Shown in pieces: positions 3,590 through 59,436 of a stretch of DNA of 64,000 nt (position 1 is the stretch's first letter; every line of letters starts with the position of its first letter). The notes under the pieces are model-generated. The model did not search any database and was not told where the DNA came from. It saw only the letters and a list, made by a program, of their open reading frames with translations. Source of the stretch: Bacteroidales bacterium (GTDB lineage: Bacteria > Bacteroidota > Bacteroidia > Bacteroidales > F082); contig JAGBQJ010000034.1 of NCBI GenBank assembly GCA_017632935.1, forward strand, positions 1-64,000, in the 5' to 3' direction. Made by a program: the position numbers and the translations under genes.

Positions 3590-4906
3590 ATGAAGAAACA
3601 GTATCAAGCCGTTACGGCCGCTGAGGCCGTAAAAGTCATTAAGTCTGGCGACCACGTGCATATCAGCTCGGTCTCCAATGTACCCCAATGTTTAGTCAAA
3701 GCCATGTGTGACCGCGGTCGTGCAGGCGAACTCAAAAACGTCTACATCCACCATCTGCACACCGAGGGTGCTGCGCCTTACGTCAATCCAGAGTTCGAGG
3801 GCATCTTCCAGCACAACGCTTTCTTCGTGGGTGCCAACGTCCGCGAGAGTGTGCAGAAAGGCCTTGCAGACTATATCCCTGTCTTCCTTGGCGAGACCTC
3901 GAAACTCTATCGAGAGCGTTACATCAAGTGCAACGTAGCGATGATCCAGGTGTGTCCGCCTGACAAGTTTGGATATGTGTCGCTCGGCTCCTCAGTTGAT
4001 GCCACCTTGGCGGCTATGGAGAGCGCCGAGTTCGTCATCGCCGTGGTCAACAAGCATGTGCCGCGCACTTTTGGCGATGCGTTGGTCCATATCAGTAGAA
4101 TCAATGTCTTTGTAGAGGATGACACTCCCCTACTAACTGTTGACATGCCTGAGCCTACTGAGGTGGATAAGACCATCGGTCGCTATTGCGCCGAGCTCAT
4201 CGAAGACGGCGCCTGCCTCCAGATGGGTATCGGCTCCATTCCTAATGCCATCCTTTCGTGTCTCCACAATCACAAGGACATCGGCATCCATACCGAGATG
4301 TTCTCTGACGGCATCCTGCCTTTGGTCAAAAAAGGCGTCATCACAGGCAACAACAAGAAACTTGATAAGGGAAAGATTGTTTCCACCTTCGTCATGGGCT
4401 CGCAGAAGATATATAACTTCATCGATGGCAACCATGAGGTGCTGTTGAAGGACGTGGAATACACCAACGATCCTTTTGTCATCGCGCAGCAGCCCAAGAT
4501 GACCTCCATCAACTCGGGCATTCAGATTGACTTGTCGGGTCAAGTTTGTGCTGACTCCTTGGGCGAACGCATCTATTCCGGTGTGGGCGGGCAGATCGAC
4601 TACGTCTAAGGTGCCTCGCGTTCCAAAGGCGGCAAGGCCATCATCGCCATGCCTTCCACCACACGTAAGGGCATCAACAAGATTGTGCCCACCTTGGATC
4701 TGGGCTCAGGTGCCGTCACCACACGTAACCACATCCATTGGTTCATCACGGAATATGGCGCGGTGAACCTCTACGGGCGTTCGTTGCAAGAAAGAGCCAG
4801 GCTCATCATCTCGGTGGCACATCCCCAGTTCCAGGAGATGCTCGACGAGGCTGCCTTCAAACGTTTCGGGTCGCATTTTCATTACCTTTGGAATAGTATC
4901 GTTTAA
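3590..4906 (+). pseudogene. Acetyl-CoA hydrolase/CoA-transferase (4-hydroxybutyrate/butyryl-CoA type), broken by one in-frame TAA
   Basis: Family I CoA-transferase that moves CoA between short-chain acyl-CoAs and acetate. Residues 1-339 run from MKKQYQAV to GGQIDYV, with the catalytic Glu236 in GIHTEMFSDG. Then TAA (4607-4609) interrupts the same frame, which continues GASRSKGGKAIIAMPSTTRK to the natural stop at 4906. The total of 438 codons matches the normal family length and both halves are fully family-like. Only one codon, usually Arg or Lys at this position, is therefore lost. The 3' third contributes to the acyl-CoA site, so a 339-residue product is probably inactive. Causes could be recent mutation, strain variation or a base-call error; stop-codon recoding is unlikely because TAA ends most genes here. 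It lies under the B12 riboswitch. Confidence 0.85.
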
Positions 4907-4985
4907 TAGACGCGGGACTTCGGGACACGAGACGCGAGACGGGGTTGGTCCCGTGTCTCATAGTCCCGTGTCTCGTGTCAATAAA
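4907..4985. repeat. Dispersed intergenic repeat, family C (inverted CCCGTGTCTCGTGTC motifs)
   Basis: The gap holds tandem and inverted copies of a GTCCCGTGTCTCGTGTC-like unit: gacgcgggacttcgggacac on one side and cccgtgtctc twice on the other. It can fold into a long hairpin. A related copy sits at 30737-30771. No coding sense is visible. It separates the broken CoA-transferase from marC. Confidence 0.65.
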
Positions 4986-4997
4986 AAAACACCAACT

Positions 4998-5594
4998 ATG
5001 TTCGGTCAAATCAACTTCGTTGAAATCTTCGGCGCCTTCATCGTGATGGCCGCCATCATCGATATCTTCGGCTCCATCCCTATCTTTATGAGCATGAAAG
5101 AGCAAAACAAGACTATCAAGGCGGGACAGGCCTGTCTGACGGCTTTGGGTTTGTTTTTGGCCTTTTTCTTCGCGGGCGACGCCTTGTTAAAGCTCTTCGG
5201 CATCGACAAGGAATCGTTCGCTGTGGCAGGCGCTTTTGTGCTGTTCATCTTAGCTGTGGAGATGATCCTCGGTCGGGAAATTATCAAGAATGAAGGCGGT
5301 AATGGTGGCGCCAGCATCGTGCCCATCGCCTTCCCGCTGATTGCCGGTCCGGGCGCGCTGACGGCCTTGCTTTCACTGCGTGCCGACTATGCCGTCATCA
5401 ATATCATTATTGCCTTGTTGCTCAATATTTTACTGGATTACATCGTCATCCGTTCATTGGACAAGATACAGCGCATCTTGGGCGAAAACCTGATTTTCAT
5501 TTTGCGGAAGTTCTTCGGTGTCATCCTATTGGCCATCGCTGTGAACATGTTCGTGAACAATATTCTGGCCATCATCGCGAGCGTACCGAAATAA
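4998..5594 (+). CDS. MarC/UPF0056-family inner membrane protein
   Basis: 198-residue MarC-family protein with six predicted membrane segments and the family features FIVMAAIIDIFGSIPIF near the N-terminus and AFPLIAGPGALTALL in the middle. The biochemical role of MarC proteins is not settled; despite the name, a link with multiple antibiotic resistance was not upheld. I place the start at ATG 4998, not at an upstream in-frame ATG that lies inside the repeat. The AspT-like transporter begins 46 bp downstream on the same strand. Confidence 0.88.
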   Translation: MFGQINFVEIFGAFIVMAAIIDIFGSIPIFMSMKEQNKTIKAGQACLTALGLFLAFFFAGDALLKLFGIDKESFAVAGAFVLFILAVEMILGREIIKNEGGNGGASIVPIAFPLIAGPGALTALLSLRADYAVINIIIALLLNILLDYIVIRSLDKIQRILGENLIFILRKFFGVILLAIAVNMFVNNILAIIASVPK

Positions 5595-5640
5595 TCCCTA
5601 ATTTTGTCTGTTGAATTCTAACCTCTTGAAGACTAATATC

Positions 5641-6828
5641 ATGTTGAATCTTTTTACCGGTGCGGGCGTGGGGTCTACCATCCTATATTTATCCTTGTCG
5701 ATTTTCCTCGGACTGCTCTTGGGCAAAATCAAGATTGCAAAAATCTCGTTGGGCATCACCTGGGTGCTCTTTGTGGGTATTGCCATCAGTGCTTGCGGCA
5801 TCAGCCTTAATCCGGATATGCTGCACATCATCAAGGAGTTTGGCCTCATCCTCTTTGTGGTTGCGGTCGGATTGCAAGTTGGACCAGGCTTTTTCCGTTC
5901 CTTCAAGAAAGGCGGCTTGGCCATGAATCTCATGGCCTTGGTCAATGTGGCACTCGGTGTTTTGATCACCTACATCATCGCCAAAGTCGCGCATCAGGAT
6001 TTGGCTGACATGGCCGGTGTTTATACAGGTGCCATCACCAACACGCCTGGCCTTTCGGCAGCTCAGCAAGCAGTTAACGACATGGGCATTGAAGGTGGCG
6101 CCGACCGTTTGGCAGCAGGCTATGCTGTGGCTTATCCCCTCGCAGTGGTGGGCATGATTCTGACTTGTATCGTTTTGCGACCGCTCTGCCGCATCGACTT
6201 GAAAAAGGAGCCTTTCACTGAAGATTCCATTGAGCCCAAAGCCGAGAAACAGGCTACGCCCACGTCGCAGCGTCATAAAGTGAATCTCATTCCCATCTTT
6301 GTCATCATCGCTTTAGGCATTATCATTGGCTCCATCCCGATTCCTGTGGGCATGAAAGCCCCCATCAAATTGGGTTTGGCTGGCGGGCCTTTGGTGATAG
6401 CCATTGTCGGCGGATGGCTGGGTGTAAGGAAAGGCTGGTTCACGACCGAGTTCACTGACAGCCATGGTGTGTGGATGCTCCGTGAGGTAGGCATTGCACT
6501 TTTCCTCGCTTGTGTGGGGCTAGAAGCCGGAGGCAAGTTTGTGGAAACCGTGCAGGTCCACTACATGTGGGTCGTCTATGGCGTCATCATCACCATTGTG
6601 CCGCCCATTTTGGTCGGGCTGTTCGGGCGCTTGGTGCTAAAGATGAACTACTACACACTGATGGGTTTCATCGGTGGCTCCCACACCGATCCTCCTACCC
6701 TCGCCTTCGCCAACACCGTGGCGCCTGAGGGTTGCAAACTGCCCAACATGGGCTATGCCACCGTGTATCCACTGACCATGTTTTTGAGAATTTTCACGGC
6801 GCAGCTGCTGGTGTTGCTGGCGGTATAA
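5641..6828 (+). CDS. AspT/YidE-type putative transporter without RCK_C domains
   Basis: 395-residue integral membrane protein of the aspartate:alanine exchanger family. It shows the family's two-fold inverted repeat, each half ending in a signature loop: GAITNTPGLSAAQQ (about residue 135) and GGSHTDPPTLAFA (about 350). Family members such as AspT and YidE are about 550 residues and carry two TrkA/RCK C-terminal domains between the halves. Here only a short charged linker (about 190-215) remains, so this is the short, apparently unregulated form. Substrate unknown. ATG 5641 is preferred; a TTG at 5611 would add ten residues. Confidence 0.82.
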   Translation: MLNLFTGAGVGSTILYLSLSIFLGLLLGKIKIAKISLGITWVLFVGIAISACGISLNPDMLHIIKEFGLILFVVAVGLQVGPGFFRSFKKGGLAMNLMALVNVALGVLITYIIAKVAHQDLADMAGVYTGAITNTPGLSAAQQAVNDMGIEGGADRLAAGYAVAYPLAVVGMILTCIVLRPLCRIDLKKEPFTEDSIEPKAEKQATPTSQRHKVNLIPIFVIIALGIIIGSIPIPVGMKAPIKLGLAGGPLVIAIVGGWLGVRKGWFTTEFTDSHGVWMLREVGIALFLACVGLEAGGKFVETVQVHYMWVVYGVIITIVPPILVGLFGRLVLKMNYYTLMGFIGGSHTDPPTLAFANTVAPEGCKLPNMGYATVYPLTMFLRIFTAQLLVLLAV

Positions 6829-6830
6829 CC

Positions 6831-6861
6831 GAAGAGGCGGCTCATTAGGAGCCACCTCTTC
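6831..6861. terminator. Hairpin between convergent genes
   Basis: GAAGAGGCGGCTC (6831-6843) pairs with GAGCCACCTCTTC (6849-6861), with one mismatch and a 5-nt loop. It lies right after the stop of the AspT-like gene and 29 bp before the stop of the convergent DUF4465 gene. Neither side has a proper T-run, so intrinsic termination would be weak. Confidence 0.5.
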
Positions 6862-6890
6862 ATACTCAAAACTCTATATGTACCCGATTG

Positions 6891-8741
6891 TTAACGGACA
6901 ATCACTTTTTGAATCTTCCTGTTCCCATTCCAGCTGACAGCGACGAAATAGATGCCTTGATGGCAAGAGGTCAGGTCGATTTGGGCTGAACCGTTTTGCG
7001 AATGACCGCGCATCACGTTTTGTCCCAATAGGTCATAAACCTCGTAGTCAAAAGCTTGGGTCTCGCCCAAGTCGACGGTGATTTGTCCGCTGGTCGGGTT
7101 GGGATAGACGGTCACAACACTGGCGCTTTCATCCACGGCTTCCACGATGTACATCAACACATGCACCTCAAAGTCGACATACTGTCCGTCGCTGGTGGCA
7201 CGCATTGTCAGGGTGAAATCGGCGTCGTTGTTGGCTTCGCGCGTCAGCACGAGAATCTTGCCGTTCATCGTGGCAGTCAAATCCTCAGGATTGGGGTTGC
7301 TGACAATGCTGAAGACGATGCCTTCGTCAGGGTCGTCGGGGTCAGTGGCCACACCATCGAGGTTGACTTCGATGGTCTGCGGGAAAGCATCAAAAACCAC
7401 ATCCTGAACGGGGTTGAGAATAAAGGGCGGCTCGTCAACGATGGCGTTGATGATAACATGCACATTGAAGTCAACCGATTGCCCATCGCTGGAAGCGCGC
7501 ATCGTGAGGTCGACGGTAGCTTGGTTTTCGTTTTGACGGGTCATCACAAGGGTTTTGCCACTCATCGTGGCATTCAAAGCAGTGGGGTTGGAATTGCTGA
7601 CGATGCTATAGGTGATGTTCTCGTCTGGGTCGTCGGGGTCAGTAGCCACACCGTTGAGGTTGACTTGAATGGTTTGCGGGTATTCATCGAAAACAACATT
7701 TTGCACTGGGTTGACAATGTAAGGCGGATTGTCGACCACTTGGTTGATGATAACATGCACATTGAAGTCGACCGACTGCCCATCGCTGGTGGCGCGCAAT
7801 GTGAGGTTGACCGTGGTTTGGTTGGCGTTTTGACGCGTCATCACAAGGGTTTTGCCGCTCATCGTGGCGGTCAAGGCACTGGGATTCGAGTTGCTGACGA
7901 TGCTATAGGTGATGTTCTCATCTGGGTCGTCAGGGTCGGTGGCCACACCGTTGAGGTTGACTTGTTGAGTCTGCGGATATTGGTTGAAGACCACGTCCTG
8001 TACAGGGTTGACGATATATGGCGGTAGATCAGGAGCAGCCCCGCCACCATTGAAATTGTCCATGCAGAAATAAGCCGGTGTAATCATGTTGTAGCCGCTG
8101 CCCCTCGATGACGAAAGGCTAAAGGAGATGGTAGCCACATTACCCAAGGGACTGAGGTCGAACCACTCCCAAGTATCAAGGACATAGTCTTCCGCATTGT
8201 TGGCAAAGCGAAAGTCGGCGAGGTAGAAATCCAATGCACCCACAGTTTGTCCACTGGCATTCTTACCTGTCGCCGTCACCTTAAACCAGTCAGGGTCGTT
8301 GCCTGAAGACCCTCCGTAGGGTGGCTCGCCATACCCGCCTTGAACCATGTCCTGATATGTCCACAGATTATTGGTGACATAACAACCTGTGACGGTATGT
8401 AATTGCCCATCGGTGGCATAGACATCCGTCGGCACACCCATGGTATAAGCCACGGCATATTGGAAAGAGCCGTCGTAGCCACAACCCGTGACGGCGGTGT
8501 ATTGGGCATCCAAGCCTGTCTGGGTCAGGTTCGTGCGGTTGGAGGCCGTGAAGCCGCCCCAGTAGCCGTTTTCGGTAAAATTGGTAAAGAGCCAGCCGCC
8601 GCTGGACATCTCATTGGATCCAATAGGGGGTTGCCAAATACCGTTACTGCCGAGTTGTACGTCTTCGAATGTGGCTGGATCCTGTGCAAAGGCAAATACG
8701 GCCAGAAATAGCGTTAGGGGTAAGAGTAAAAGTTTACGCAT
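6891..8741 (-). CDS. DUF4465 surface protein with three Ig/cadherin-like repeats and a T9SS sorting domain
   Basis: 616-residue secreted protein. Order: Sec signal peptide (1-19, ending AFAFAQ-like); a DUF4465 domain to about residue 230; three near-identical tandem repeats of about 97 residues, each starting PPYIVNPVQDVVF or similar and containing ATDPDDPDE; and a C-terminal T9SS type A sorting domain (VYPNPTSGQITVDL ... GIYFVAV ... KVIV) for cell-surface attachment. DUF4465 proteins in Bacteroidetes are found in B12-uptake loci; as I recall, the B12-binding protein BtuH belongs to this family. The upstream minus-strand B12 riboswitch supports a corrinoid-capture role. Start ATG 8741 gives a proper signal peptide. 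Confidence 0.85.
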   Translation of the reverse strand: MRKLLLLPLTLFLAVFAFAQDPATFEDVQLGSNGIWQPPIGSNEMSSGGWLFTNFTENGYWGGFTASNRTNLTQTGLDAQYTAVTGCGYDGSFQYAVAYTMGVPTDVYATDGQLHTVTGCYVTNNLWTYQDMVQGGYGEPPYGGSSGNDPDWFKVTATGKNASGQTVGALDFYLADFRFANNAEDYVLDTWEWFDLSPLGNVATISFSLSSSRGSGYNMITPAYFCMDNFNGGGAAPDLPPYIVNPVQDVVFNQYPQTQQVNLNGVATDPDDPDENITYSIVSNSNPSALTATMSGKTLVMTRQNANQTTVNLTLRATSDGQSVDFNVHVIINQVVDNPPYIVNPVQNVVFDEYPQTIQVNLNGVATDPDDPDENITYSIVSNSNPTALNATMSGKTLVMTRQNENQATVDLTMRASSDGQSVDFNVHVIINAIVDEPPFILNPVQDVVFDAFPQTIEVNLDGVATDPDDPDEGIVFSIVSNPNPEDLTATMNGKILVLTREANNDADFTLTMRATSDGQYVDFEVHVLMYIVEAVDESASVVTVYPNPTSGQITVDLGETQAFDYEVYDLLGQNVMRGHSQNGSAQIDLTSCHQGIYFVAVSWNGNRKIQKVIVR

Positions 8742-8852
8742 AAAAACATTGTTTAAGCATTGAACAAATACTGCAAAACCAACGCAAGAAGCCATGCTAA
8801 TTGCCACGCTTAGCGTCGCCCTTGTTCCCGAAGGCTTGCAATTGAATTCTCC

Positions 8853-9007
8853 GTCTGGCAGGTCTTCTGACTCGCCCGAGCCTGTCGCCTTCCCATACGG
8901 ATGAGCCGTACAGTGGCTTGGTGTGACAGGCCTTACACGGACTTACAGCAGCGGGCACTGTTGCCGATTTGCACGGCATTCCCTTGGCCAAACTAAGGGC
9001 AAAAATA
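8853..9007 (-). promoter_or_regulatory. Cobalamin riboswitch (minus strand) with -7 element, upstream of the DUF4465 gene
   Basis: The reverse complement contains all hallmark pieces: GGGAATGCCGTGCAAATCGG, then a GCCCGCTGCTGTAAGT stretch, and the B12-box GAGTCAGAAGACCTGCC at 8873-8857. A TATTTTTG -7 element lies at 9007-9000 just before it. The distance from box to start codon is about 115 nt. It is divergent from the third riboswitch, with about 100 bp between the two. Confidence 0.92.
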
Positions 9008-9080
9008 CAACAATTTGGCGAATGGTAAACACTCAAATAATTATTTTAATCGGTATTAGACAACATGTCGAAATAATCCG

Positions 9081-9262
9081 TATTTTTGCCATTGATTTGT
9101 AGGTGTCCTCCACGGACTCAATAGGGAATCGGGTGTGAATCCCGGACAGTTCCCGCTGCTGTGTTGGCCAATCGCCTGCCACTTAAGCCACTGAAAGCCC
9201 TGTCTTTCGGGAAGGCGGCAGAAGCGAGGCCTCAGTCAGAAGACCTGCCTCAAGTCGTGAAA
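9081..9262 (+). promoter_or_regulatory. Cobalamin riboswitch with -7 element but no intact downstream gene
   Basis: TATTTTTG at 9081-9088, then a full cobalamin riboswitch: AGGTGTCC (9101), AGGGAATCGGGTGTGAATCC, CCGCTGCTGTG, and B12-box GTCAGAAGACCTGCC ending at 9249. The promoter and aptamer look intact. The next real gene on this strand is the sirtuin at 9642, and a strong terminator at 9484-9519 lies between them. Confidence 0.9.
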
Positions 9263-53795: not shown

Positions 53796-53825
53796 CTTGC
53801 ATAATCCAATTTTTATCTATCTTTG
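53796..53825 (+). promoter_or_regulatory. Promoter of the Cys-rich peptide/Tat operon
   Basis: A TATCTTTG -7 element at 53818-53825 is preceded after 18 bp by CTTGC (53796-53800), a fair -33 element for the Bacteroidetes primary sigma factor. Transcription would start near 53832, about 300 nt before the first precursor gene. Confidence 0.65.
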
Positions 53826-53831
53826 CCCCGC

Positions 53832-54133
53832 CAAGCTGGGAGAAATCGGCTGGCCAGAGAAAGCGCATTCTTCGCTTTGTTCCTCGGCTGTGAATCTGGA
53901 CAATTCACTTTGGTATATGAGGAATAATGAGATGAGGCGGCTTTCACTGTTTAATGTTTGTGTATTCATATATACCTTGCATAAACAGTGGAGCTAACCA
54001 TTTCCATTATTTTGATATACCGGGAGTCCAGACCCAACAGCCAGAATAAGGATAAGTTTGGGAGGCTCCGCTCTGTTTGCCATTGAACAATGCTGCCCTT
54101 TGAGCCGAGGAAAGCAAACAAAAACTCAACAAA
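53832..54133 (+). promoter_or_regulatory. Long structured 5' leader of the Cys-rich peptide operon
   Basis: No protein-coding frame is credible here. Visible folds are AAAGCG/CGCTTT (about 53859-53877), a 9-bp perfect stem CACTGTTTA (53945-53953) with TAAACAGTG (53982-53990), extendable with mismatches, and CATTG/CAATG near 54081-54092. I cannot match it to a known riboswitch. A regulatory role, such as metal or redox sensing or attenuation, is a guess based only on length and structure. Confidence 0.4.
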
Positions 54134-54418
54134 ATGGAAAACGGAGAGAACAAAAATCTTCAAGGAAGAAGGGAGTTCTTCAAGGAAGCGGCAAGAAAGG
54201 CTTTGCCGATTCTTGGTGCCGTGGCTTTGATGAGCAGTCCTGTAACAGCGAAGACGTTTCATGTTGTTTCCAAAGATTGCAGTAATTCTGAATGTACAAA
54301 GAGCTGCGTAGATGTGTGTAAAAACACTTGCAATACGATGTGCCATGAAGGATGTAAGGGTTGTAATGGAACTTGTAAAGGATCCTGTTTAGATTCTTGT
54401 AAGGACTCAAATGAATGA
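54134..54418 (+). CDS. CXXX-repeat RiPP precursor 1 with twin-arginine leader
   Basis: 94-residue precursor. The leader has Arg12-Arg13 in GRREFFKEAARKALPILGAV, a Tat motif (RRxFFK) followed by a hydrophobic stretch and a likely signal-peptidase site near VTA/KT (about residue 40). The core (about 50-94) has 11 Cys, mostly spaced by three residues (CTKSCVDVCKNTCNTMC), with CHEGCKGC breaking the register once. This matches what I recall as CXXX-repeat radical SAM target peptides. The product is probably modified in the cytoplasm and exported by the TatAC encoded downstream. The final activity is unknown. Confidence 0.85.
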   Translation: MENGENKNLQGRREFFKEAARKALPILGAVALMSSPVTAKTFHVVSKDCSNSECTKSCVDVCKNTCNTMCHEGCKGCNGTCKGSCLDSCKDSNE

Positions 54419-54453
54419 ATAAAATGATATAATAATTTAATATTCAATAAGAT

Positions 54454-54768
54454 ATGAAGTCAAAGCTATTACTTTTGTTGCTTTCAACCATACTAATATT
54501 TCCATCATGTGGTATTACCAATCGTCTCTCCATTGGAGATAGTCGATATTTGGATGTTTATTGCATACAACAACTAAAAGATGATGCAATATTAGCTGTA
54601 TATGCTGAAGAAGACAACAATAATGCTGTAAAAATCATAACAAACGGGAAACACTATTCAAATTGGCAAAGAATTCGAGGAGAGTTCAAATGCGTTGGTT
54701 TTTGGACGTATGAAACAAGCGAAAGCATTATTTCAACGATTCCAGTCTTTGTCAAATCATCTGATTAA
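54454..54768 (+). CDS. Small lipoprotein of unknown function within the precursor cluster
   Basis: 104-residue protein with an SPII signal (lipobox ILIFPSC, Cys19). The mature part (GITNRLSIGDSRYLDVYCIQ, ILAVYAEEDNN) looks like one small beta domain. It is AT-richer than the housekeeping genes. It lies between precursors 1 and 2 on the same strand and is therefore probably in the operon. It could protect the producer or bind the exported peptide at the membrane; both are guesses. Confidence 0.7.
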   Translation: MKSKLLLLLLSTILIFPSCGITNRLSIGDSRYLDVYCIQQLKDDAILAVYAEEDNNNAVKIITNGKHYSNWQRIRGEFKCVGFWTYETSESIISTIPVFVKSSD

Positions 54769-54868
54769 ATATAAAAAATATGAGGAAGCCTTACATAAAC
54801 AAAACCGTAAATAGTATAATTCAATAGAACCGATGCACCCAATGGGATATAACAGGGAGAAATAAACA

Positions 54869-55111
54869 ATGGAGAATAACAAGGAAATCCAAACAAGAAG
54901 AGAGTTCTTCAAAAATGCCGCAAGAAAAAGTCTGCCGATTTTGGGTGTAATTGCCCTTTCGGCAACTCCTTTTCGTTTAAGCGCCGTACAATCATCAAAT
55001 TGCACCTCCAATTCTTGCACCAACGGTTGCAAGGGCAATTGTACCAAATGGTGTAACGGGACATGCCATACGAGCTGCACCGACAATTGCAAAGGAAGTA
55101 GTGGAAAATAA
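54869..55111 (+). CDS. CXXX-repeat RiPP precursor 2 with twin-arginine leader
   Basis: 80-residue precursor. Leader: Arg10-Arg11 in TRREFFKNAARKSLPILGVI, then SATPFRLSA as probable cleavage region. Core of 8 Cys: one four-residue gap (CTSNSC) and then strict CX3 spacing (CTNGCKGNCTKWCNGTC, HTSC, TDNC). It is the shortest of the four. The 5' flank CAATGGGATATAACAGGG is shared with precursor 3, pointing to tandem duplication. Confidence 0.85.
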   Translation: MENNKEIQTRREFFKNAARKSLPILGVIALSATPFRLSAVQSSNCTSNSCTNGCKGNCTKWCNGTCHTSCTDNCKGSSGK

Positions 55112-55172
55112 TCTTTAACAACATGGAATAAAACCGACGAGCTCAATGGGATATAACTGGGCAAAAAACACA

Positions 55173-55472
55173 ATGGAAAAACAAAACAAACAAGGAGAAA
55201 CCCAAAACAGAAGACAATTCTTCAAAGAAGTCGCCAGAAAGTCATTGCCAATTCTCGGTGCTGTGGCTTTGATGAGTAATCCAATGATTGCAAAGGCAGT
55301 TGGAAAAGAAACAACTAATTGTAGGAATGCATGTGCAGATGACTGTGCAGGAAGATGCGAAGGCTCATGCTATAGCACATGCAAAGGAACTTGTGAAGGG
55401 AGTTGTTTAAAAGGATGCAAGATTTCGTGCTACGGTTCTTGTAATGACTCATGTGTAGCTGTCTCAAAATGA
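55173..55472 (+). CDS. CXXX-repeat RiPP precursor 3 with twin-arginine leader
   Basis: 99-residue precursor and the most regular one. Leader: Arg13-Arg14 in NRRQFFKEVARKSLPILGAV, then LMSNPMIAKA. The core has 12 Cys, every one separated by exactly three residues (CRNACADDCAGRCEGSC, YSTC, KGTC, EGSC, LKGC, KISC, YGSC, NDSC). Small residues Gly and Ser dominate the position before Cys. ATG 55173 is chosen to match the start of the other precursors (MEK/MEN) and the shared 5' flank. The stop overlaps precursor 4 (ATGA). Confidence 0.87.
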   Translation: MEKQNKQGETQNRRQFFKEVARKSLPILGAVALMSNPMIAKAVGKETTNCRNACADDCAGRCEGSCYSTCKGTCEGSCLKGCKISCYGSCNDSCVAVSK

Positions 55473-55765
55473 ATACTCAGTCTAGAAGAGAGTTCTTTAG
55501 GAACGCAACAAAGAAGACCCTGCCAATTTTGGCCATTGCACTATTGACATATGTGCCAACCATATTAAAAGCGTCAGAATCATTAGTGTGTGAAAACAGT
55601 TGCTATGGCTCATGTAGTGATGGTTGTGGAAGCTACAATTGCAGAGGTTATTGCAAGGGTACTTGTGAAGGAACCTGTGAGGGTCAATGTGGTGGATGTA
55701 CTGGTTGCAAAGGTACTTGCTCTGGAACATGTAAATTCGGATGTACCAGTAAAGAACAATTCTAA
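55469..55765 (+). CDS. CXXX-repeat RiPP precursor 4 with twin-arginine leader
   Basis: 98-residue precursor. Shorter leader: Arg6-Arg7 in SRREFFRNATKKTLPILAIA, with LKASE as possible cleavage region. The core has 14 Cys, mainly CX3 with one CX4 (CGSYNC) and two CX2 steps (CGGCTGC); Gly-Thr-Cys is repeated (KGTC, EGTC, SGTC). ATG 55469 overlaps the precursor 3 stop, so translation is coupled. The radical SAM maturase starts 6 bp after the stop. Confidence 0.86.
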   Translation: MNTQSRREFFRNATKKTLPILAIALLTYVPTILKASESLVCENSCYGSCSDGCGSYNCRGYCKGTCEGTCEGQCGGCTGCKGTCSGTCKFGCTSKEQF

Positions 55766-55771
55766 TTCATA

Positions 55772-57028
55772 ATGATAAGAACAATCAAAGAAAACCAAGA
55801 CTCCTGGCAGTCCGGCATGGCGAAGAACATCACCTTCATCGTCACAAAGGACTGCCAGTTGGCTTGCAAATACTGCTACCTTGTGGGCAAGAACGTGAAG
55901 GAACGGATGCCTTGGGAGGTGGCCAAGACCTTCATCGACTATGTGCTCGACCATGAGAATGACCCCGATTTCGCATACGAGTCGGTGGTGTGGGACTTCA
56001 TTGGCGGCGAGCCTTTCTTGGAGATAGAGCTTATCGACAAGATTTGCGATTACATCAAGACGGAACTATATCGTCGGAATCACCATTGGTTCAATAGTTA
56101 CCGTTTCTCCTTCTCCACCAATGGCATTAACTACCATGAGAAAGCCGTTCAGGATTTCATCAAGAAGAACCGCGACCACCTTTCCATTGGCATCACCATC
56201 GATGGAACGGAGAAGAAGCATGATTTGAACCGAGTGTGGAAACAGCCCGTGGCTGATGACAACGGCCTGACAAAACCATCGGAACGTGGTAGCTATAAGG
56301 ATGTAGTGAAGAACATCCCATTGTGGTTGGAGCAGTTCCCGGGAGGTGGCACCAAGGTCACCATCTCGTCAGCGGACATTCCCTATATCACTGAAAGCGT
56401 GCTGCACCTCTACCGCCTCGGCATCCACGAGGTGAACATCAATGTTGTGTTCGAGGATGTCTGGCAAGAGGGCGACGATCTCAAGTTTGAGGATCAACTG
56501 ATACAGTTGGCTGATGAAATCATTGATGGCGGTTATTATCAAGACTACGCTTGTTCGTTCTTCTCGGAGCATATCGGCAAGCCTATGGACCCTGAGCGCG
56601 ACAATCAGAACTGGTGCGGCGCGGGCAAGATGCTTAGTGTGGACGCAGCGGGGAACCTCTACCCTTGCACCCGTTTTGCACAATACTCCCTCCGCGACAA
56701 GGACGCTTGGATTATCGGCAACATCCGAAACGGCATCGACAAGAACAAGCTCCGCCCCTTCCTCACCCTCGACCGAACGACGCAAAGTCCACAGAAATGC
56801 ATCGAATGTGAAGTGGCCAGCGGTTGCGCTTGGTGCCAAGGCGAGAACTACGACGCGGCACAGACGCACACCGTGTTTGAACGCGCCACTGCCATCTGCC
56901 TCATGCACAAGGCAAGGGTAAGAGCCAACAACTACTACTGGAACAAGCTCTACCGCAAACTCGAATTAGAGGATCTGCGCGAGCAATATGAAGCCAACAA
57001 ACGCGAAGTGAAACCCGAAATCTGTTAA
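55772..57028 (+). CDS. Radical SAM/SPASM peptide maturase of the CXXX-repeat type
   Basis: 418-residue cytoplasmic enzyme. Radical SAM motif C28-x3-C32-x2-C35 (KDCQLACKYCYL) binds the SAM-cleaving 4Fe-4S cluster; GGEP at 78-81 supports SAM binding. The C-terminal SPASM domain has seven Cys (C282, C299, C343, C346, C352, C355, C376) for auxiliary clusters. It should install crosslinks or other radical chemistry on the Cys-rich cores; thioether bonds are the obvious candidate but are not shown by sequence. I recall a family called radical SAM peptide maturase, CXXX-repeat target. Confidence 0.92.
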   Translation: MIRTIKENQDSWQSGMAKNITFIVTKDCQLACKYCYLVGKNVKERMPWEVAKTFIDYVLDHENDPDFAYESVVWDFIGGEPFLEIELIDKICDYIKTELYRRNHHWFNSYRFSFSTNGINYHEKAVQDFIKKNRDHLSIGITIDGTEKKHDLNRVWKQPVADDNGLTKPSERGSYKDVVKNIPLWLEQFPGGGTKVTISSADIPYITESVLHLYRLGIHEVNINVVFEDVWQEGDDLKFEDQLIQLADEIIDGGYYQDYACSFFSEHIGKPMDPERDNQNWCGAGKMLSVDAAGNLYPCTRFAQYSLRDKDAWIIGNIRNGIDKNKLRPFLTLDRTTQSPQKCIECEVASGCAWCQGENYDAAQTHTVFERATAICLMHKARVRANNYYWNKLYRKLELEDLREQYEANKREVKPEIC

Positions 57029-57031
57029 GCC

Positions 57032-58024
57032 ATGCTGCAATACCTTGTTATATTATTGGATGACACCAGCGTGGCCTACTGCCATGCCGACAATCCGCTG
57101 AAAGGACGTAACTTAATTCCGTTAGAAACCCTCAAAAAGGGTATCCTTTTCGGGATGAAGCAAAACCTGATGATTCAGTATGTCTTCCCCAATTACGAAC
57201 TTCCGAAGGAGTATGCTGAGGTTATCGAGAGCATCGACAACGTGAAGATTTATCCTGTTGGTTGCAAGCCTGTTACAGGCATTGAAGACGGCAACGATGC
57301 CGATGTGGAAGCGGCAAATGAAGTCCCAGAAAAAGAGGAAGCCAAGAACTTGGTGCTTCGCCTCACTTTCACCGAAATGCTGAAACAAAAGGACGCGATT
57401 GCCAAACTGTTTGCTTCGGGAGCAAGGGTCAACCTTTGCATCACCGATGTTGAGCAATTCTCAGACGAGCAGATGGAAGCCTACAAGCAAGTCTTGAAAG
57501 AGTGGAACGCCACTTTGCTCGACCTTTACAAGCAAGGCCAATCTCCACAATTCAATTTACTGACGGACAGGATGATGCTGGAAAAGATGCACAACTGCGA
57601 GGCAGGGGTGAGCAACATCACCCTTGCGCCTAATGGGAAGTTCTACCTCTGCCCTGCCTTCTACTATGACGAGCAAACAAAGGTTGACAACCAACTGAAC
57701 CACCACCAACCGACTTCGGACAATTCCGTTGGCGACTTGGAAAAAGGCTTGGACATACCAAATCTGCAACTCCTGAAACTCGACCATGCGCCCTTGTGCC
57801 GCAACTGCGACGCTTACCAGTGCCGACGTTGCATCTGGCTCAACCGCAAGCTGACTTGGGATCTCAACACGCCCTCGCGCCAGCAATGCGTGATGGCTCA
57901 TATAGAGCGCAACGCTTCACGTGACTTGCTGAACGACATCCACAAGGTCGGAGAGTTCATGCCCGAAATCGACATCAAGGAAATCAGCTATTTGGACCCG
58001 TTTGAGGTCAGGAAGGAGTTTTAG
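57032..58024 (+). CDS. SPASM-type second maturase without a radical SAM motif (CXXX-repeat peptide maturase)
   Basis: 330-residue protein, 3 bp after the radical SAM enzyme. No CxxxCxxC cluster motif is present in the first two thirds. The C-terminal third has the seven-Cys SPASM pattern (C189, C207, C256, C259, C264, C267, C286; NCEAGVSNITLAPNGKFYLC). It thus looks like a degenerate radical SAM relative that keeps only the auxiliary clusters, perhaps for substrate binding, electron supply or complex formation. As I recall the name CXXX repeat peptide maturase fits. It is followed by a repeat-derived hairpin. Confidence 0.82.
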   Translation: MLQYLVILLDDTSVAYCHADNPLKGRNLIPLETLKKGILFGMKQNLMIQYVFPNYELPKEYAEVIESIDNVKIYPVGCKPVTGIEDGNDADVEAANEVPEKEEAKNLVLRLTFTEMLKQKDAIAKLFASGARVNLCITDVEQFSDEQMEAYKQVLKEWNATLLDLYKQGQSPQFNLLTDRMMLEKMHNCEAGVSNITLAPNGKFYLCPAFYYDEQTKVDNQLNHHQPTSDNSVGDLEKGLDIPNLQLLKLDHAPLCRNCDAYQCRRCIWLNRKLTWDLNTPSRQQCVMAHIERNASRDLLNDIHKVGEFMPEIDIKEISYLDPFEVRKEF

Positions 58025-58028
58025 GACA

Positions 58029-58121
58029 CGCTTTGCGTCACTGCGAGGCACGAAGCAGTCCAGCCAATATCTTATACTCTGGATTGCTTCGTCGTTCCTC
58101 CTCGCAATGACGCGAAGCGAC
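58029..58121. repeat. Long hairpin from two inverted copies of dispersed repeat family A
   Basis: 58029-58063 is an exact inverted copy of 30673-30709 (35 nt; CACTGCGAGGCACGAAGCAG inside). A diverged copy in opposite orientation (about 58080-58121, GGATTGCTTCGTCGTTCC ... CGCAATGACG) makes a hairpin of about 93 nt. It lies inside the operon, between the second maturase and the 89-residue protein, and could modulate transcript stability or readthrough. Confidence 0.8.
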
Positions 58122-58164
58122 AACAAGACAACAATTAAACGATTAAACACTCAACAATTCAACA

Positions 58165-58434
58165 ATGAAGAAAATAGTAGGTCAGGTAACCCCTGAAGAA
58201 AAGAACGAAATCCAACAACTCTTCGAAAGAAGAAACGGTCTGAACGAATTGGCGAAAATCCTCAGCGCCGACAACACCGAACTTTACGAGAAACTCGTAA
58301 AGGACATGGGCGAGACCGGCACCAAGTTCCAAAATTGGTGGGACCGCATGGCGCAGAAATACCAATGGGAGTCGGCCGAAAACGGCAACTGGGAAATCAA
58401 CTTTGAAACCAACGAAATCTATCTCGTATCATGA
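58165..58434 (+). CDS. 89-residue CXXX-repeat peptide modification accessory protein
   Basis: Small acidic soluble protein with no Cys and no catalytic motif ([20 protein letters not shown], then [13 protein letters not shown]). The predicted pattern is three or four helices followed by a Trp-rich beta end ([16 protein letters not shown]). I recall a family named CXXX repeat peptide modification system protein with this size and context; a role as leader-binding or chaperone component is inferred. Its stop overlaps the tatA start (ATGA). Confidence 0.7.
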
Positions 58435-58646
58435 CACTATTATTCATCGGCACCACAGAACTGCTGCTCATCGCAGGCGTAGCCTTGCTCATCTTCGGTG
58501 GAAAAAAGATCCCCGAGCTAATGAAAGGCTTGGGCAAAGGTGTGAAAAGCTACAAAGAAGGATTAAATGAGCCGTTGGACGTAAAGGAACCTGATAAGAC
58601 GGATGAAGAAGCAAAGCCGGAAGAAAGCGGCGGAAACGGACAGTAA
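58431..58646 (+). CDS. tatA: Twin-arginine translocase subunit TatA
   Basis: 71-residue TatA: N-terminal membrane helix (about 2-22), hinge [20 protein letters not shown] and an acidic C-tail. TatA rings form the Tat pore that carries folded proteins. No TatB follows, so this is a minimal TatAC system. It overlaps the 89-residue protein by 4 bp and tatC by 44 bp. Confidence 0.95.
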
Positions 58647-59436
58647 TTCCGATCCGAACATGCTCACCTTCGGCGGACATCTTGAGGTGCTCCGCCGAAT
58701 GTTATTTCGCATCATCATCGTGGTGATGGTGATAGCGATAGCTGTTTTCTGCTTCAAGGAAAAGACTTTCGAACTATTGCTTGCACCCAGCCAATGGGAC
58801 TTTGTCACTTATCGATACATAGAAAAATTCCTGCATTATTTCGGTTCCAATTTCACCTTTAACCAGTTCCACATCAACCTAATTGCCACAGAGTTATCGA
58901 GCCAATTCATGACGCACATCACGACAGCGCTGTATCTCGGTCTTTTAGGAGCTTCACCGTACATTTTGGTTGAACTGTTCCGTTTCATCACACCTGCCCT
59001 TTACGAAAACGAGAAAAAGTATTCCGTGCGAGTGGCTGCCACAATGTACCTTCTTTTCATTGTCGGTGTGCTGATGTCTTACTTCATCCTATTCCCCATT
59101 TCATTCAGGTTCTTAGGCACATATAGCGTCTCTGGGATGGTGGAAAGCAACATCACCTTGAAATCCTACATCAGCACTTTTACAACTTTAACACTTGTCA
59201 TGGGCTTGGTGTTTCAATTGCCCATCATCGCCTTTTTCTTGGGCAAATTGGAAATGGTAAGTTCCGAATTGTTAAGGCAATACCGCAAATATGCCTTCCT
59301 CGTCATCATGGTTCTCGCTGCCATCATCACCCCACCCGACTTGATGACTTTGGTTTTAGTCACCATCCCGTTGTATCTGCTTTACGAAGTGAGCATATTT
59401 GTGCTGAAACGAATGGAGAGAAGATCTTCCAAATAA
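58603..59436 (+). CDS. tatC: Twin-arginine translocase subunit TatC
   Basis: 277-residue TatC, the receptor that recognises the RR signal. Six membrane helices; N-terminal HLEVLRRML motif; periplasmic and cytoplasmic loops with [18 protein letters not shown] and [15 protein letters not shown]. An unusually basic N-terminal extension ([18 protein letters not shown]) precedes the core. Read with the four RR-leader precursors, it looks dedicated to, or at least coexpressed with, the RiPP system; it may also be the only Tat system of the cell, which the window cannot show. Confidence 0.95.

Follow-up and report, generated by a model that had tools for sequence, protein, structure and literature searches.

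Gene content of the cluster

On contig JAGBQJ010000034.1 of a gut-type Bacteroidales bacterium (assembly GCA_017632935.1), within a stretch of 64,000 nucleotides that we analysed as a whole (hereafter, the window), a run of plus-strand genes encodes four Cys-rich precursor peptides, a radical S-adenosylmethionine (SAM)/SPASM maturase, a partner protein, an 89-residue accessory protein and the TatA and TatC subunits of a twin-arginine translocase (Tat), in this order. The gene content and the precursor leaders make it quite likely that the cluster makes radical-SAM-modified peptides, which would be exported after modification via its own twin-arginine translocase. The precursor genes lie at 54134..54418 (94 residues, with 11 Cys in a CXXX-type core), 54869..55111 (80 residues, 8 Cys), 55173..55472 (99 residues, 12 Cys, all spaced by four) and 55469..55765 (98 residues, 14 Cys), with alternative in-frame ATG codons for the last two at 55146 and 55451. 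Their leaders carry the motifs RREFFK (precursors 1 and 2, both with Leu-Pro at +12), RRQFFK (precursor 3) and RREFFR (precursor 4). The genes for the maturase (55772..57028), its partner (57032..58024), the 89-residue protein (58165..58434), TatA (58431..58646; TIGR01411, 56.6 bits against a cut-off of 53.9) and TatC (58603..59436; TIGR00945, 160.7 bits against a cut-off of 132.7) follow, the last being one of two TatC genes in the genome. Precursor genes 3 and 4 share 4 bases, and the gaps from precursor gene 4 to the maturase gene and from there to the partner gene measure 6 and 3 bases, respectively; downstream, the gene for the 89-residue protein overlaps tatA by 4 bases and tatA overlaps tatC by 44. 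The gap of 140 bases between the partner gene and that for the 89-residue protein holds a hairpin (58029..58119, no strand assigned; -54.4 kcal/mol, z -8.6). With up to 2 mismatches allowed, the genome contains 38 copies of this sequence (0 for the reversed control), so we regard the hairpin as a dispersed, REP-like repeat and not as part of the system.

The Cys residues form 8, 6, 11 and 10 C...C pairs at a spacing of four in the cores of precursors 1 to 4, counts that were matched by 0, 2, 0 and 0, respectively, of 20,000 shuffles per core. All four precursors match TIGR04117 (Syntroph_Cxxx) with 47.1, 49.1, 43.3 and 39.1 bits (E 6e-10 to 5e-13); by these scores they are clear relatives of the family, yet fall under its curated cut-off of 50. 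Precursors 3 and 4 pass the cut-off of 20 for TIGR04114 (26.6 and 23.4 bits) and precursors 1 and 2 do not (18.2 and 12.8 bits). Coordinates, family matches and shuffles together confirm the observation behind the original prediction, which had placed in one run four precursors with Cys at every fourth residue and RRxFF[KR] leaders, a radical SAM/SPASM enzyme, a SPASM-only partner, an 89-residue protein, TatA and TatC. The corrections are small (its left edge, 53796, takes in 338 bases ahead of precursor 1), and its interpretation is partly supported. A genome-wide search with a loose DNA pattern for RRxFF[KR], which admits Ser codons and omits some terminal Arg codons, found 12 occurrences in the genome (92% complete) against 5 for the reversed control. 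Apart from the four precursors, two short open reading frames (ORFs) of the places fetched contain the motif; there it either lacks a signal-like stretch after it or lies at residue 83.

Maturation proteins

The maturase system already has family names, as its three proteins all pass the curated cut-offs of NCBIfam models: TIGR04115 for the maturase (607 bits, cut-off 350), TIGR04119 for the partner (230 bits, cut-off 150) and TIGR04116 for the 89-residue protein (103 bits, cut-off 50). Together with the four short Cys-repeat ORFs beside the maturase gene, these matches place the cluster in the CXXX-repeat set. The CX3CX2C motif of the maturase is present in 16 of 16 sequences, and seven Cys of the SPASM domain are invariant in the same 16. 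Its nearest named kin in NCBIfam are PapB (175 bits), followed by CcpM, the SCIFF maturase and QhpD, and the closest solved structure by sequence is CteB (5wgg). Maturases of the SCIFF and QhpD types carry out Cys thioether chemistry. Because the alignment with CteB begins only at residue 94 of 5wgg (residue 15 of the query), the maturase has no N-terminal recognition domain like that of CteB; of the features of ranthipeptide-type enzymes it has the CX3CX2C motif and the SPASM Cys and not this domain.

The partner had been described as a SPASM-only protein, a label that the structural model corrects: the protein is predicted to adopt a complete radical-SAM/SPASM fold, with CteB as best fold match, in which CX3CX2C has been lost. 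On the strength of this model, pseudo-radical-SAM protein is the better description. The model of the 89-residue protein comprises a strand, a helical hairpin and two strands. The three proteins are variously fused in relatives, as radical SAM enzyme and partner (L050, L174), partner and 89-residue protein (L177, L178), and radical SAM enzyme and 89-residue protein (L181).

Conservation in related loci

A scan of GTDB genomes returned 418 coding stretches, the best 80 of which were examined. With whole-genome stretches and one phage-labelled record added, the set grew to 120 loci and, after removal of 5 without a full radical SAM gene and 17 duplicates, comprised 98 distinct loci. In the genomes of relatives, TIGR04115 scored above its cut-off in 28 of 199. 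The order precursor, radical SAM enzyme, partner, 89-residue protein, TatA and TatC is conserved across the distinct loci; where at least 3,500 bases follow the radical SAM gene (80 of 98 loci), the partner was found in 77, the 89-residue protein in 75, TatA in 70 and TatC in 68. The last count bears out the co-occurrence of maturase and Tat genes that had been proposed as a check. The three partner misses are a fusion (L050) and two long partner ORFs with an early start (L112, L144). Among ORFs of at least 80 residues, every gene family outside the system is limited to 14 of 97 loci at most.

Leader architecture

The related loci contain 167 precursor ORFs, and 150 of them carry RRxF[FLIVM]; the other 17 include variants such as RRQLF and RRKLF, contig-edge pieces, spurious frames and true precursors without the twin Arg (RR). 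In 154 distinct leaders, selected for RR with a slightly looser spelling than RRxF[FLIVM], Phe stands at +3 in 97% and at +4 in 94%, Lys or Arg at +5 in 98%, Leu at +12 in 90% and Pro at +13 in 94%. A hydrophobic residue followed by Pro, mostly Leu-Pro, begins at exactly +12 in 144 of the 154. Tat signals have a twin Arg followed by Phe or Leu, a hydrophobic stretch, and an A-ending cleavage site or a lipobox. This consensus is present in the RR-selected leaders by count and in the four window leaders by eye, the latter all with A-ending signal peptidase sites, also seen by eye. A strict lipobox follows the hydrophobic stretch in 31 of the 154 precursors; of the remaining 123, 102 show an A-ending site within range. 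Thus, about a fifth of the precursors look, from their sequences, like Tat lipoproteins. In Bacteroidota, an acidic stretch after the lipobox directs lipoproteins to the surface; at least two acidic residues occupy positions +2 to +6 in 22 of the 31.

Three relatives with RR-less precursors (L176, L179, L180) keep the sequence KTLPG in their leaders. We read the leader as bipartite, with two overlaid signals, of which RRxFFK would address Tat and the Leu-Pro element the maturase. Of the two, only the Leu-Pro element survives in these three relatives, which are of the ATP-binding cassette (ABC) exporter type, and it is therefore the probable recognition element. The leaders of L050 and of an Anaerococcus locus (L174) contain neither RR nor the Leu-Pro element. 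The earlier proposal that the leader is both maturase recognition sequence and Tat signal is thereby refined: RRxFFK and Leu-Pro are both near-invariant, and the two roles would fall to these separate elements.

Beyond the leader, the 154 precursors contain 2,576 CXXX units, with Ser, Thr or Lys at +1 in 50%, Gly at +2 in 38% and Ser, Gly or Thr at +3 in 71%. Upstream of precursors 2 and 3 we noted by eye a similar stretch (AATGGGATATAAC; 54830-54869 and 55115-55173), hinting at a gene duplication that included the leader region or at a start-site element. Several relatives have in-frame upstream ATG codons that give M[EG]YN-like starts (also by eye).

Export route

Among the 88 loci with RR precursors, 75 have TatA or TatC and 13 have neither, six of these 13 being cut too early to judge for TatAC (L099, L127, L132, L138, L153, L157). 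The five uncut loci with RR-less precursors (L050, L174, L176, L179, L180) all carry an ABC exporter, and TatAC was not found in the stretch seen of each; an exporter of similar kind was found within 3 kb in 0 of the 88 RR loci. Two further loci, L098 and L143, score as RR-less only through truncation at the contig edge. For RR versus Tat, the Fisher test gives 1.9e-4, with rows related by descent and cut contigs included. We counted the exchange of export routes as three lineages, the loci within them being kin by descent. In L050, from another Bacteroidales family, the ABC exporter and a subtilase gene lie between precursor and maturase; in L174, an Anaerococcus plasmid, the exporter follows the maturase; in L176, L179 and L180, from one distant Bacteroidota family, an exporter with the Pfam domains ABC_membrane and ABC_tran directly follows the partner. 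TatC was found elsewhere in the genome for 4 of 4 RR clusters tested that lack adjacent TatAC (L024, L026, L177, L178) and also in four Bacteroidota hosts of RR-less precursors, which by this reading could use Tat but do not. The proposed Tat export withstands the comparative check that could have refuted it, as homologous clusters usually keep TatAC and RR and the five RR-less loci have an ABC exporter instead. Because the maturase is kept while export alternates between TatAC with an RR leader and an ABC exporter without one, the family could be used to ask directly why a pore for folded proteins is needed for a modified peptide.

The TatAC genes could also be housekeeping genes that lie beside the cluster by chance; the precursors would then be exported in some other way, and RR would serve maturase recognition only. 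We judge this very unlikely. The copy number of TatC bears on it in two ways. Of the 28 genomes with the system, 21, the window's own included, have at least two TatC genes, against 9 of 171 without it (counted by hand; G075, one of the 9, carries a radical SAM gene split over two contigs). In five of the 28, however, the single TatC found is the cluster copy and must also serve other cargo, as judged by its place in G040, G076 and G158 and, in G001 and G009, from a cluster with one TatC in a genome with a count of one; in G093 and G156 the single TatC lies away from the cluster. Phylogeny is similarly divided. The tree comprised 74 cluster TatCs and 31 others (30 from the best-scoring loci plus the second copy of the window's genome). 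Of the cluster TatCs, 53 form one clade (100/98) and 12 a second one, and 9 group among housekeeping TatCs, as chance adjacency would predict; the nine housekeeping TatCs of the genus form a clade of their own (100/100). Cluster and other labels changed 3 times in the tree against 27.2 in shuffles, an analysis that gave long-branch warnings.

The window's TatC lies outside the tree and was placed by its identity to the cluster TatC of L088, a member of the 53-row clade (89%, against 48% to the second TatC of its own genome). The partners of L098 and L046 are 83-84% identical to that of the window and their TatCs 42-44%; by these identities, a TatAC from a different lineage occupies the usual position in both loci. 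The retention of TatAC even where its lineage was swapped argues against chance adjacency, as do the absence of RR in the five loci with ABC exporters, three of which keep the Leu-Pro element, and the second TatAC of the window's genome, which has an RREFIK protein of its own two genes on. Downstream of this second TatAC (L056, 2146-6151 of contig C25) come first a membrane protein and then the RREFIK protein, which resembles aldo/keto reductases and ferredoxins; the translocase is perhaps a housekeeping Tat with its own cargo. In many genomes, a Tat translocase is apparently devoted to one cargo class.

Several observations weigh against export through a devoted translocase. The genome scan contributed the nearest 80 of its 418 hits, and the loci come mostly from Bacteroidales. 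At least five uncut RR clusters have no adjacent TatAC in full view (L158, L024, L026, L177, L178), which also favours the housekeeping alternative; L111 and L140 show no TatA in the 471 and 1,000 bases, respectively, after the gene for the 89-residue protein, L141 and L164 are RR loci with TatA in which no TatC was found, and L147 lacks both and also shows no precursor. A 'dedicated' TatC is not universal, since 21 of 74 cluster TatCs fall outside the main clade and five genomes seemingly have the cluster copy only. In L174 the ABC gene is flanked by the maturase cluster on one side and a class III lanthipeptide cluster on the other, and it could be part of the lanthipeptide cluster instead. 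Lastly, the repeat-bearing gap of 140 bases in the window may weaken the expression of TatAC from one transcript with the genes upstream.

Phage-borne relatives

Viral contigs of IMG/VR encode TIGR04115 enzymes 37-39% identical to the window's beside Cys-repeat proteins. The maturase of L185 scores 654 bits against TIGR04115, above the 607 of the window's enzyme. In this contig the Cys-repeat region lies at 6247-7584 and the radical SAM gene at 7920-9233 (the same holds for L186; in L184 the region is 4688-6656). The viral Cys-repeat proteins reach 265 residues and 53 C...C pairs and have no RR leader. In L185 the maturase genes follow genes for baseplate-J and Mu gp48-like proteins and precede a long gene that weakly matches tail fibres, and in L184 they come after baseplate-type genes; it is possible that the viral Cys-repeat proteins are radical-SAM-modified phage tail proteins. 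Other viral contigs (L193, 10275-11497; L196, 9143-9691; L197, 7907-8476) have several radical-SAM-like genes adjoining CxC or CNCNYACT-type repeats, which follow a different grammar.

Proposed mechanism and function

In the anaerobic cytoplasm, the maturase complex would likely recognise the Leu-Pro part of the leader, and the radical SAM enzyme would likely cross-link the CXXX units, as its kinship with enzymes that form Cys thioethers suggests. Unable to thread Sec, the cross-linked core would exit folded via TatAC, the Tat route being the best-supported step. Signal peptidase I would then release the product into the periplasm, and sister precursors with lipoboxes would be lipid-anchored, many of them with an acidic stretch resembling the surface-export signal. 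As a lead, we propose that the product is a stiff Cys-rich element of the envelope or surface, a role favoured by the lipoprotein forms, the presence of 1 to 8 distinct RR precursors per locus (88 loci, 38 with two or more), the rarity of any other gene family around the cluster (ORFs of at least 80 residues) and the CXXX repeats encoded in phage tail modules. Counting against this scheme, the thioether assignment derives from kinship alone; the Cys-X3-Asp acceptor of PapB is not found here, a further Cys occupying position +4; and the predicted fold of the 89-residue protein is not recognisable as a winged-helix recognition domain.

The main rival to an envelope element is metal binding: the core would not be cross-linked but a Cys peptide loaded with metal, such as copper or iron-sulphur, before Tat export, with the radical SAM set modifying the residues between the Cys. 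Cofactor-loaded proteins are typical Tat cargo, and the regularity of the Cys (2,576 spacings of four) would suit a metal ligand; a precedent comes from bufferins, Cys-containing ribosomally synthesized and post-translationally modified peptides (RiPPs) with signal peptides that bind periplasmic copper, as stated in PMC12452194. We hold metal loading to be rather unlikely, as no metal-handling gene is conserved (no family outside the system exceeds 14 of 97 loci for ORFs of at least 80 residues) and the nearest maturases form Cys thioethers. The peptides could also be antimicrobials directed at neighbours. The maturases of RiPPs in gut bacteria often make bacteriocins, and several variable precursors per cluster are common here. 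This role is unlikely in our view: the 97 loci share no conserved immunity or leader-protease gene of at least 80 residues, smaller genes falling outside the comparison, a fifth of the precursors are predicted lipoproteins, and repeats of the same kind occur with the same maturase family in phage tail modules.

Returning to the envelope element, we raise a broader scheme as a tentative possibility. The clusters would form an own-Tat branch of RiPPs in which a radical SAM enzyme and a pseudo-radical-SAM protein, acting in the cytoplasm, convert tracts with Cys at every fourth residue to stiff cross-linked rods that exit folded via the cluster's TatAC. The envelope would display these rods, in many cases as lipoproteins at the surface, and tailed phages would have adopted this chemistry for proteins of their tails.

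Relation to known systems

RiPPs usually exit by ABC exporters and a few by Sec, and Tat export of CXXX peptides would be an unusual route for this class of natural products. The window's cluster agrees with the NCBIfam CXXX set (targets TIGR04114, TIGR04117 and TIGR04118) in that the three maturation proteins pass the cut-offs and the precursors match; whereas the family names are silent on export, our analysis adds the linkage to TatAC, the dissection of the leader, the Tat lipoproteins and the ABC alternative. The export anatomy was met in none of the papers searched, the maturase set being already known by family name. As in PapB ranthipeptides and CteB SCIFF peptides, a radical SAM/SPASM maturase is paired with a Cys-rich peptide. 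Unlike in those systems, the leader is of the Tat type, TatAC is present and position +4 is Cys; PapB acts on Cys-X3-Asp/Glu (PMC9413430).

The doubling of a RiPP leader as an export signal is shared with bufferins, for which PMC12452194 gives preliminary results on the signal peptide as part of the recognition sequence. Bufferins differ in using an MNIO enzyme and the Sec route where the window has a radical SAM set and a Tat-type leader, and no MNIO enzyme was found among the ten proteins scanned. DybA, also a product of MNIO chemistry, which is lacking here, is likewise a modified peptide with a lipobox and enters the lipoprotein pathway (PMC12636315, a preprint); the words twin-arginine and Tat are absent from that text. 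No paper describing the CXXX-repeat system, or a radical-SAM RiPP exported by Tat, came up in the literature searched, which left out subscription papers and the notes to NCBIfam models, where a Tat link may be mentioned; a term search of PMC9062424 likewise gave no match.

Neighbouring and possibly mislabelled sequences

Between precursors 1 and 2, a plus-strand ORF of 104 residues (54454..54768) has a Sec-type lipobox, FPSC, seen by eye. It matched no family above cut-off and had no relative among the related loci, and this lipoprotein-like ORF probably stands outside the conserved system. The phage-labelled record of the survey (L175, MT837480.1; 6.8 kb, 'Bacteriophage sp.') contains a cluster that runs from RR precursor to TatC and is possibly bacterial DNA under a wrong label.

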